This document shows, in pieces, positions 46,507 to 51,817 of a stretch of 64,000 bases of DNA. The position numbers were made by a program, and so were the translations under genes. The stretch is taken from the NCBI RefSeq assembly GCF_026000375.1, contig NZ_AP026708.1:1552501-1616500 (forward strand), in the 5' to 3' direction. The notes beneath the pieces were generated by a model that worked only from the letters and a program-made list of their open reading frames with translations, ran no database searches and was not told where the DNA came from. Source of the stretch: Pseudodesulfovibrio portus. GTDB lineage: Bacteria > Desulfobacterota > Desulfovibrionia > Desulfovibrionales > Desulfovibrionaceae. Every line of letters begins with the position of its first letter. Within the stretch, counting starts at the first letter, position 1.

Positions 46507-47946
46507 ATGAGAAAATCCCTGTGCATCCTCATCCTGGCCGTCTGCCTGTGGCCCGCCCTGCGGACCGGCCCTGCGGCGGCCCATCCCCACGTCTTCGTGG
46601 ACACGTCCCTGACCTTCGTGTTCGACGACACCGGACTTGCGGCCATCCGCCAGAACTGGCTGTTCGACGAGATATTCAGCCGGGCCATCCTGAGCGATAT
46701 AGGGCTGACCCCGGAAGCGCTGTCCACGCCCGAGGGACAGGAGGCCATCCGTGAAGGGGCCTTTGCCTACCTCAAGAACTACGGCTGGTTCACCTTCGTG
46801 GAATCCGGCGGCAAACGGATTCCGGTCACCGAGACCCGCGACTTCCGGGCATCCGTCCGGGACGGTCGCCTGGTTTACGACTTCACCGTTCCCCTCATCC
46901 TGCCCTATGCGGAGTTCAAGGATTTCCGCATGGGCGTGTTCGATCCCGAGTACTACTCGGACATCGTGCTGGTGGACGGCGGCATTGCCTTCGAGATGGG
47001 CGGCATGGCCCAGGTGAGCCACACCATCAGGCCCGGCAAGGACCACACCTACTGGCAGTTCATCGTGCCCAGCATGATCCACGTCGCCGTCTCCGGCACC
47101 CCCGGCGAAGCGCCGCAACCGGTCGCCGCCGAAATGCGGGAAGTGGATTCCCCGGGCCCGGTGGAACGGCTCATGGCCTTTGTCCGCTCAGCCCAGAAGG
47201 AACTCACCCAGCGCCTCAACACCTTCGGCATGGAGCTTGCGGGCAACCCGTTCGGGTCCGCCCTGTGGCTCTTCCTGGGGCTGTCCTTCATCTACGGCGT
47301 GGTCCACGCCGTGGGGCCGGGGCACGGCAAGGCCGTGGTCTGCTCCTATTTCATGGCCAATCCCGGCTCCCTGGCCGCCGGAGCGATCATGGGCAACGCC
47401 ATCACCTTCGTGCACATGGGGTCCGCCGCCGTGGCCGTTGGCGCGGCATACATGCTCTTCTCCTCGGGCATGGGCGGGTTCGCCGAGGCCAGCCGCGCCA
47501 TCCAGCCCGCCAGCTACGGACTGCTCGCGCTCATGGGGCTGTTCCTGGTCTTCAAGTCCGTCCGCGACATCCTCAAGGGCGGCCTGCTCTCGCCCGGTTG
47601 CGACTGCGCGCGCGAGAACGAGCCGGACGACCTCCGGTCCATACTCACGGTCTCCTTTGTCACCGGCCTGATCCCCTGCCCCGGCGCGGCGGTCATCCTG
47701 GCCTTTGCCATCGGTCTGAACATCTTCTGGACCGGCGTGCTGGCCCTCGTCTGCATGGCGCTGGGCATGGGGCTGACCACCACCCTGTTCGCCTGGTTCG
47801 CGGTCACGGCCCGCAACGTCACGCTCCAACTCTCCGGCTCCAACAAGGCCGTGTTCAACCGGATCTACGCCGGTCTCTCCATCTGCGGCGCCTCCGCCAT
47901 CGCCCTGTTCGGCGGGGCGCTCTTCCTCGGCTCCATCAGCGGCTAG
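46507..47946 (+). CDS. DUF1007 - NicO/RcnA metal transporter fusion
   Basis: This 479-aa protein has a signal sequence ending AAAHPHVFVD. The HPHVFVDTSLTFVFD start is the DUF1007 domain (about 25-225), thought to be a periplasmic metal-binding part. It continues into a six-helix NicO/RcnA-type nickel/cobalt permease: GVVHAVGPGHGKAVVCSYFM supplies the HxxGPGHGK motif, and VTGLIPCPGAAVILAFA the second signature. A Cys-containing cytoplasmic loop (SPGCDCARENEPDD) separates the helices. The permease could export or import Ni/Co, both needed for hydrogenase and cobamide. I start at 46507 (MRKSLCILIL). Confidence 0.85.
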   Translation: MRKSLCILILAVCLWPALRTGPAAAHPHVFVDTSLTFVFDDTGLAAIRQNWLFDEIFSRAILSDIGLTPEALSTPEGQEAIREGAFAYLKNYGWFTFVESGGKRIPVTETRDFRASVRDGRLVYDFTVPLILPYAEFKDFRMGVFDPEYYSDIVLVDGGIAFEMGGMAQVSHTIRPGKDHTYWQFIVPSMIHVAVSGTPGEAPQPVAAEMREVDSPGPVERLMAFVRSAQKELTQRLNTFGMELAGNPFGSALWLFLGLSFIYGVVHAVGPGHGKAVVCSYFMANPGSLAAGAIMGNAITFVHMGSAAVAVGAAYMLFSSGMGGFAEASRAIQPASYGLLALMGLFLVFKSVRDILKGGLLSPGCDCARENEPDDLRSILTVSFVTGLIPCPGAAVILAFAIGLNIFWTGVLALVCMALGMGLTTTLFAWFAVTARNVTLQLSGSNKAVFNRIYAGLSICGASAIALFGGALFLGSISG

Positions 47947-49833: not shown

Positions 49834-49866
49834 AAGGCCCCGGTCGTTTGACCGGGGCCTTTTTTT
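49834..49866 (+). terminator. intrinsic terminator after ald
   Basis: AAGGCCCCGGTC-GTTT-GACCGGGGCCTT is a perfect 12-bp stem followed by six T. From here to 50112 no further gene is visible. The spacer must hold the promoter of the GAF-GAPDH gene, but no clear hexamer pair was found. Confidence 0.92.
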
Positions 49867-50112: not shown

Positions 50113-51732
50113 ATGAGTCAACGGTTATACAAAACGATCTACGATCTCGCCCGGACAGTGAACTCCAGCCTTGAACCCTCCGAAGTGATGGCCGCCATAA
50201 CCAAAAAGGTGGCACAGGCAATGGATGCCATGGGGTGCTTCATCCGTGTTCTCGATAGCCATGAAACCATGCTCGAACCCGGCGGACACTACGGACTCAG
50301 CGACCGCTACGCCCGGAAGGGGCCTGTGGAGGTGGACAAGAGCCGCCTGGACCAGGAGGTCCTGAAGGGCCATGTGGTGGTGATCGACGACGTGTGTGAG
50401 GACAGCCGCTTCCAGTACCCCAAGGAAGCGCAGGCCGAGGGAATCGTCTCACTGGCAGTGGTGCCGCTCAATGCTCGCGACAAGATACTCGGCGTGCTGC
50501 GCGTCTATTCCGGCGAGCGCCGCGAGTTCAACGAAGAAGAACTGGATTTTCTCCGGTGCATCGCCAACCTCTCCGGGCTCGCTCTGGAAAATGCGCGCAT
50601 GTACAAGGCCCTCAAGCGCACCAGTGAGCTGGCCGACGATTTCAATTACCGCGTGTTTGAAGACCAACAACAAAAACCGGCTTCGGGACCGAGGTCCTCC
50701 GGGAGGAAAATAATGGCCAAAATAAGAGTCGGCATAAACGGATTCGGTCGCATCGGCCGCCAGGTACTTAAAACCATTTGGGAACGCCACCGCGACACCC
50801 TGGAGGTCGTCGCGGTCAATGACCTGTTCGACATAGAAACCAACGCACACCTGCTGCGCCATGACACCTGCTACAAATCATTGCCTGTCCCCATCGCCGT
50901 GGACGGGGACGTCTTCCGGGTGAGCGACGACTTCACCGTCCGCAACTTCGCCGAGCGGGACCCCCGCAATATTCCGTGGGGCAGACTGGGCGTGGACGTG
51001 GTGGTGGAGTCCACCGGCATTTTCCGGACCGGCCCCGCTGCGGCCCAGCACATCCAGGCCGGGGCCAAAAAAGTCGTCATTTCCGCACCGGGCAAGGACG
51101 AGGACATCACCCTGGTCATGGGTGTGAACCACCACCTGTACGATCCGGTCAAGCACCACATCGTGTCCAACGCGTCCTGCACCACCAACTGCCTCGCCCC
51201 CATAGTCAAGGTCATTCATGAGGCCTTCGGCATCAGCAAGGGCGTGTTGACCACGGTGCACGCATACACCAACGACCAGCGCATCCTGGACATGCCGCAC
51301 AAGGATCTGCGCCGGGCCAGGGCTGCGGCGTGCAACATGATCCCCACATCCACCGGCGCGGCCAAGGCCGTCGGCCTGGTCATTCCCGAAATGCAGGGCC
51401 GTTTCGACGGCTTCTCCGTCCGCGTGCCGACCCCCACGGTTTCCCTTGTGGACTTCGTCGCCGTGCTTGAAGGGGACACCGACACCGAATCACTCAAGCA
51501 CGTGCTGCGCGAGGCGGCCCAAGGCTCCCTGAAGGGCATCATGGCCTACAGCGAGGAGCCGATGGTCTCCTCCGATTACGTGGGCAACCCGAATTCGGGC
51601 ATTGTGGAAGCCGACTTCACCATGGTCCAAAGCGGCAACTTGGCCAAAGTCTATGCATGGTACGACAACGAGTGGGGCTATTCCTGCCGGGTGGCGGACC
51701 TCATCGACTACATGGCGGGAAAAGGATTGTAA
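50113..51732 (+). CDS. gap: GAF domain - glyceraldehyde-3-phosphate dehydrogenase fusion
   Basis: One uninterrupted frame of 539 aa. Residues 1-180 form a GAF sensor domain (LARTVNSSLEPSEVMAAIT, GCFIRVLD, GHVVVIDDVCEDSRFQYP, GIVSLAVVPLNARDKILGVLRVYS), followed by a polar linker (DQQQKPASGPRSSGRK). From Met201 it is a full-length type I GAPDH of 339 aa: GINGFGRIGR NAD-binding motif, NDLFD (Asp favouring NAD), SNASCTTN with catalytic Cys356, and TTVHAYT with His383. Ordinary GAPDHs lack a GAF domain. GGGAGG stands seven bases before the GAPDH ATG at 50713, so an independent 339-aa product is also possible. The GAF part may sense redox state or a metabolite. It lies after ald and before a terminator at 51788. 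Confidence 0.88.
   Translation: MSQRLYKTIYDLARTVNSSLEPSEVMAAITKKVAQAMDAMGCFIRVLDSHETMLEPGGHYGLSDRYARKGPVEVDKSRLDQEVLKGHVVVIDDVCEDSRFQYPKEAQAEGIVSLAVVPLNARDKILGVLRVYSGERREFNEEELDFLRCIANLSGLALENARMYKALKRTSELADDFNYRVFEDQQQKPASGPRSSGRKIMAKIRVGINGFGRIGRQVLKTIWERHRDTLEVVAVNDLFDIETNAHLLRHDTCYKSLPVPIAVDGDVFRVSDDFTVRNFAERDPRNIPWGRLGVDVVVESTGIFRTGPAAAQHIQAGAKKVVISAPGKDEDITLVMGVNHHLYDPVKHHIVSNASCTTNCLAPIVKVIHEAFGISKGVLTTVHAYTNDQRILDMPHKDLRRARAAACNMIPTSTGAAKAVGLVIPEMQGRFDGFSVRVPTPTVSLVDFVAVLEGDTDTESLKHVLREAAQGSLKGIMAYSEEPMVSSDYVGNPNSGIVEADFTMVQSGNLAKVYAWYDNEWGYSCRVADLIDYMAGKGL
50701..50715 (+). promoter_or_regulatory. internal ribosome-binding site and start for GAPDH
   Basis: GGGAGGAAAATAATG lies inside the long frame, where it encodes the end of the linker and Met201. 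The spacing and purine content are as good as at ordinary starts in this window, which suggests that GAPDH can be made without the GAF domain. Confidence 0.65.
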
Positions 51733-51787: not shown

Positions 51788-51817
51788 AAATCCCCGGTCA
51801 TGCGATCGGGGATTTTT
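51788..51817. terminator. intrinsic terminator between gap and the acyltransferase
   Basis: AAATCCCCG and CGGGGATTT pair around a 10-base loop, followed by TT on the plus strand. It overlaps the last codon of the converging acyltransferase gene by a base, so it probably serves both directions. Confidence 0.8.

Follow-up and report, generated by a model that had tools for sequence, protein, structure and literature searches.

Regulation of GAPDH by a dedicated partner has been described mainly in photosynthesis, with CP12 and GapB as the known cases (PMC4436894). In GapB the final glutamate, and in algal CP12 the penultimate one, is described there as pairing with a GAPDH arginine (R77, R82), which excludes the cofactor; the tail of Arabidopsis CP12 and fusions of CBS domains to CP12 are described in PMC10253348. 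So far, no literature on a pair of GAF protein and GAPDH was found among open-licence papers. In Desulfovibrio vulgaris, DVU0564 is presumably the GAF gene adjoining DVU0565. The GAPDH DVU_0565 itself is listed at 37.0 in PMC10920352 and serves as housekeeping control in PMC4847118.

In the window (the whole stretch of 64,000 nucleotides of Pseudodesulfovibrio portus DNA that was analysed), an earlier note had described a GAF domain fused in frame to a complete NAD-type GAPDH, and this description holds. Positions 50113-51732 of the forward strand form one open frame of 539 codons without any stop, in which matches to Pfam GAF_2 (residues 20-159; 6.7e-17), Gp_dh_N (204-306; 2.7e-31) and Gp_dh_C (361-517; 3.5e-62) follow one another, all above the gathering scores. 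The enzyme part further matches NCBIfam TIGR01534 (GAPDH-I) at residues 205-529 above the cut-off and PDB entry 1gd1 at 1.5e-126; the catalytic Cys356 and His383 lie in invariant columns of an alignment of 24 sequences, and the sequence VAVNDL, aligned to 1gd1, carries after VAVN the Asp that marks NAD preference, which we take to be Asp32 in the usual numbering. The ERDP segment is also kept, with a nearly invariant arginine (R282) that is presumably the counterpart of R77. Judged by these matches, the enzyme part is a type I NAD-dependent GAPDH. A fold search shows only GAPDHs among the 50 matches listed; that the first of them, 6ghr, stems from a CP12 complex reflects the similarity of the GAPDHs, not the tail discussed below. 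The GAF part has, besides its Pfam score, a GAF-like secondary structure in the AlphaFold model and corresponds, by alignment, to the entire standalone GAF protein of relatives (Table 1); its PDB relatives, with 3e0y (1.4e-9) as the best, are a mixed set of GAF proteins and name no ligand. Redox control by the GAF part, which had also been considered, was rejected for want of support, as 111 relatives share no conserved Cys pair (Cys42 is found in 84/111, Cys149 in 25/111, Cys39 and Cys95 in 14/111 each). Downstream of gap, a stem-loop followed by T residues (51790-51813) was seen by eye only and was not listed by the scan; it would end the unit.

Table 1. Features of the GAF-GAPDH locus, in positions of the window
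Feature	Position	Strand	Basis
Terminator-like stem-loop between the upstream alanine dehydrogenase gene (named by eye) and the GAF-GAPDH unit	49834..49861	+	stem-loop scan
GAF part, residues 1-184	50113..50664	+	Pfam GAF_2/GAF; homologue of the gene that precedes gap in 111 distinct relatives
FNYRVFED tail, residues 177-184, C-terminus in relatives, CP12-like	50641..50664	+	comparison of 111 relatives
CAA codon aligned to the lost stop, residue 185	50665..50667	+	junction alignment, 7 congeners
16-residue linker QQQKPASGPRSSGRKI, translated from what was the spacer	50665..50712	+	aligned to the intergenic spacer of congeners; pLDDT about 30
GGGAGG, ribosome-binding site of gap, retained within the linker	50701..50706	+	sequence; GGAGG or GGAGA there in 7 congeners
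GAPDH (gap-1) part, residues 201-539, which has a separate ATG	50713..51732	+	Gp_dh_N, Gp_dh_C, PDB 1gd1

At the position of the CAA codon, seven congeners have stop codons (TAG, TAG, TAA, TAG, TGA, TGA and TAG). The spacer of the window differs from theirs at many bases and, compared with the congener G148 and with Salidesulfovibrio brasiliensis, the junction shows a net loss of three bases, with the frame kept. In these two the spacer after the stop is already open and in frame, so that loss of one stop was sufficient for fusion; and since G148 and G091, with which the window gene groups at 100/100 support, both keep the stop, its loss falls on the window's own branch. The earlier note had further proposed an internal start of GAPDH, and here too the sequence agrees: six bases separate GGGAGG from the ATG at 50713 (Met201), which is where gap begins in relatives. 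Because ribosome-binding site and ATG are both retained, free GAPDH is probably still made.

Relatives were collected by a pattern scan of genome_contigs for this kind of GAPDH, of which the best 80 of 592 were taken, and by whole-genome searches of the family (149 genomes), the genus (36, four of them below 90% completeness) and the phylum (297, best 30 loci); for the other family matches listed with this type of GAPDH, the DNA upstream was added. A GAF gene lies upstream of gap at no fewer than 127 loci, 112 of them distinct when the window is included, and the families of the phylum in which such pairs occur number at least nine (f1, f10, f16, f18, f33, f67, f85, f91 and f94). All of the 111 other pairs (8 from genome_contigs, 103 from whole genomes) have a stop between the two genes (TAG in 57, TAA in 39, TGA in 15), with spacers of 2 to 375 bases and with frame relations of 0 in 36, 1 in 31 and 2 in 44; since the stop is present across all three frame relations, the fusion is not ancestral. 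The same spread over the frames speaks against a selected stop-codon read-through in the relatives, which was rejected. A stop is also contained in each of a further 21 matches listed for the family that span the two parts in a single frame, and in eight such matches of the phylum search, one of which is shared with the family set. Alignment with related Desulfovibrionaceae, which the earlier note had called for, thus shows that in every relative examined a stop keeps the two genes apart, and on this comparison the fusion is derived from separate genes by loss of a stop codon, in a single genome so far among those examined. L029, a candidate for a second fusion with a match from residue 146, proved to be a gap gene preceded by a gene that resembles ArsR (named by eye), and no GAF is seen there. 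In the draft genome of S. brasiliensis (L007; L243 = G149:C9), one of the eight genomes of the genus that have gap-1, the GAF gene is broken by frame changes, either by draft error or by decay.

Within the genus, gap-1 is present in 8/36 genomes, all eight of which have the GAF gene, and the other 28 have neither (at E 1e-20); the pair is therefore dispensable. The GAPDHs of the congeners without gap-1 are only about 40-53% identical to it, and the window's own genome encodes a second GAPDH (G000:C1:97233-98195; L002, L247) that is 49% identical and has no GAF. A GAF gene was further absent upstream of 23 distinct gap-1-like genes with at least 55% identity and at least 1000 bases of upstream DNA, a count that leaves out loci with shorter upstream DNA or lower identity; two of the 23 (L012, L015) are from other phyla by their record titles. 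GAPDH columns that differ with and without GAF were also considered as pointers to a docking site; none stood out, and the GAF-less genes mostly cluster in the tree.

The locus has changed unusually fast on the lineage of the window. In the gene tree with the nearest congeners its branch measures 0.17 versus 0.046 and 0.051, and, relative to the average for its two nearest congeners, the non-synonymous branch is longer by a factor of 3.1 (GAF) and 2.6 (gap-1); the same ratio is 0.8 and 0.9 in the controls alanine dehydrogenase and PhoH-like gene (names by eye). Amino-acid changes unique to the window versus the two nearest congeners number 23:11 for GAF (23/34), 30:22 for gap-1 (30/52) and 94:201 (94/295) for four controls of our own choosing, namely these two genes, a membrane-protein gene (46630-47943) and the second gap, which by itself is a little high at 21:26; GAF and gap-1 against the controls give an odds ratio of 3.4 (Fisher p=1.2e-6), and counts polarised by an outgroup give 35:23 vs 44:113 (p=2.6e-5). 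The synonymous distance of the window is not raised, and pairwise dN/dS to the two nearest congeners is about 0.09-0.15. Of the columns conserved to at least 95%, the window has changed 1/35 in GAF and 2/114 in GAPDH, and no polarised change falls in the tail. As conserved positions and tail are kept despite the fast change, constraint at the locus has changed and is not absent; the faster change may be a matter of relaxed constraint rather than of new function. Simple degeneration was considered and is only partly supported, nearly all conserved residues being kept.

In relatives the GAF protein ends in a conserved acidic tail, 24 or 25 residues past the N of a NAR motif in 111/111 cases. Column 183 is E or D in all of them and the final residue is D in 68, N in 21, L in 13 and E in 9; R-x-[FY]-[DE]-[DN] stands at the end of only 32/111, the wider [RQ]-x-[FYD]-[DE]-[DN] of 73/111. 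The window keeps the tail, but internally and no longer as a free C-terminus. As a paralogue control, 20 standalone GAF frames were chosen by frame length. The tail is absent from 19/19 of those without gap in a stretch of roughly 2 kb, whereas the twentieth (L301), with the tail YKFRLDDN, adjoins a gap gene; one reason for sampling L301 had been that its match extended to residue 181, and the test was therefore not fully blind. Four of the 19 also end in two acidic residues (PSEE, PPEE, PPEE and PTED), but these ends are longer, different and contain proline. The paralogues away from gap (L282-L300) show recurring ends of their own, with several GYRRSL, GYRRSI or GYRRTI, LEHHPLRDW twice and PSEE or PPEE three times, as if tails were specific to partners. 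Four CP12s in three cyanobacterial genomes end in ECRVYDD (three) or NCLVYDD (one) and the closest GAF tails in NYRVFED; a match of this length, five to six residues, could be chance.

AlphaFold was run on the monomer with 24 sequences and no tetramer (mean pLDDT 80.6, pTM 0.59). The model consists of the GAF part with a long helix (141-177) and the GAPDH part; residues 178 to 203 are without secondary structure and pLDDT is below 50 at 169-200 and 387-408. Neither docking of the tail nor an ordered tail is seen in this monomer model, which does not favour a CP12-like docking but is compatible with one; the run being of a monomer, the cofactor site of the tetramer is not formed in it.

How the fused frame is to be explained depends on whether it is real and whether it matters. 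If one codon was misread in sequencing or assembly, the strain would in truth have two genes; where the ancestral stop stood, exchange of one T for C (TAA to CAA) would be enough to produce the fused frame. The codon concerned, residue 185, lies within residues 165-201, where the earlier note had placed a possible error that hides a stop. Such an error is improbable, given that the genome is complete, in a single contig and 99.99% complete, that the spacer differs at many bases and, by a net three bases that leave the frame intact, from G148 and S. brasiliensis, and that both GAF and gap-1 have changed unusually fast on this lineage, which an error at one codon leaves unexplained. A larger share of our doubt goes to a fusion that is real but neutral, with the pair under relaxed constraint, internal initiation giving all useful GAPDH and the long form tolerated as a minor product; this would agree with the 28/36 congeners that lack the pair, with the second gap in the genome, with the faster protein change and with the strong internal Shine-Dalgarno sequence, but the low dN/dS and the retention of conserved residues and tail make it rather unlikely.

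The tail raises questions of its own, since it might serve something other than GAPDH. GAF proteins often act in signalling and paralogues carry other, similar C-terminal peptides, which would suit a signalling protein with another partner that is merely co-transcribed with gap and whose tail binds something else. We find this doubtful: in the sample the tail occurred beside gap (1/1) and nowhere else (0/19), genomes of the genus have both members of the pair or neither, and the tail is similar to one known to bind GAPDH. The acidic residues could, further, be a side effect of a purine-rich stretch in which the codons double as ribosome-binding site of gap, as in many pairs the stop lies only 2-16 bases before gap; yet the tail is kept in 16/16 pairs with spacers of 116-375 bases and is therefore not such a by-product, and the codons of its DDN form lack the GAGG core. 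This origin is so improbable that we consider it ruled out by the 16 long-spacer pairs.

On balance we lean towards a stop-loss fusion of a GAF-gap unit whose GAF protein would be a ligand-gated, CP12-like regulator of GAPDH that docks by its tail. The locus is a conserved unit of two genes, a small GAF protein followed by type I GAPDH. In relatives, the separate GAF protein most likely takes a small ligand in its GAF pocket and docks by its acidic tail on GAPDH near the cofactor site, as the tails of CP12 and GapB do. In the window, loss of the first gene's stop makes possible one chain of 539 residues, GAF-linker-GAPDH, with the GAF partner covalently attached and its tail no longer free; from the ribosome-binding site and ATG within the linker, internal initiation would probably supply free GAPDH too, and with free GAPDH alongside the fused chain, the likely outcome is mixed tetramers, in which some GAPDH chains carry GAF and others do not. 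Of the control of GAPDH by GAF that the earlier note had suggested, the control itself stands as an interpretation, but a built-in GAF as the normal state does not, since the fusion is derived and was seen in one genome.

A wider reading, which we offer as possible rather than probable, is that the small GAF proteins encoded next to gap, in nine or more families, represent a counterpart of CP12 outside photosynthesis, a ligand-gated sensor that plugs the cofactor groove by its acidic tail; the window would then be a step from trans to cis, in which the regulator was fused in front, the tail became internal and both halves changed fast to fit. If true, this suggests a second origin of the GAPDH plug, in sulfate reducers and relatives, and gives the GAF family a testable function. 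The window clearly exemplifies how an enzyme and a putative regulator become joined when a stop codon is lost, and such a natural fusion suggests that GAF and GAPDH proteins can function while in contact. More broadly, the fusion draws attention to a conserved pair of GAF protein and GAPDH in which the GAF protein has a CP12-like C-terminus, and the separate pair looks like a widespread, little-studied mode of GAPDH regulation.

One comparison is with the separate GAF-gap pairs, such as that of S. brasiliensis JCM 12178, which have the same two proteins in the same order and differ from the window by the stop codon between the genes; apart from that stop, this strain has a spacer that is open and in frame. 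With CP12 the GAF protein shares the acidic C-terminal peptide and, as partner, a type I GAPDH with the ERDP arginine; unlike CP12 it has a GAF domain, and it lacks the AWD_VEEL motif and the C-terminal Cys pair. The AWD_VEEL core is absent from the window protein and Pfam CP12 has no match in its genome (G000) at E 0.001; by these marks the GAF protein is not a CP12. The hosts of GAF-gap are, moreover, not known as photosynthetic, and binding of GAF to GAPDH is for now proposed by analogy. A further comparison is with CBS-CP12 of cyanobacteria (PMC10253348), where the CBS domain is N-terminal to CP12 and a domain of ligand-binding type likewise precedes a GAPDH-directed tail; there, however, GAF is replaced by CBS, the CP12 core that the GAF protein is missing is present, and adjoining gap is a feature of the GAF gene. 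Plant GapB (PMC4436894), finally, shares with the window that a regulator's tail has become a covalent part of GAPDH; the tail of GapB is a free C-terminus under redox control by two Cys, whereas that of the window precedes GAPDH, lies between GAF and linker and has no Cys.
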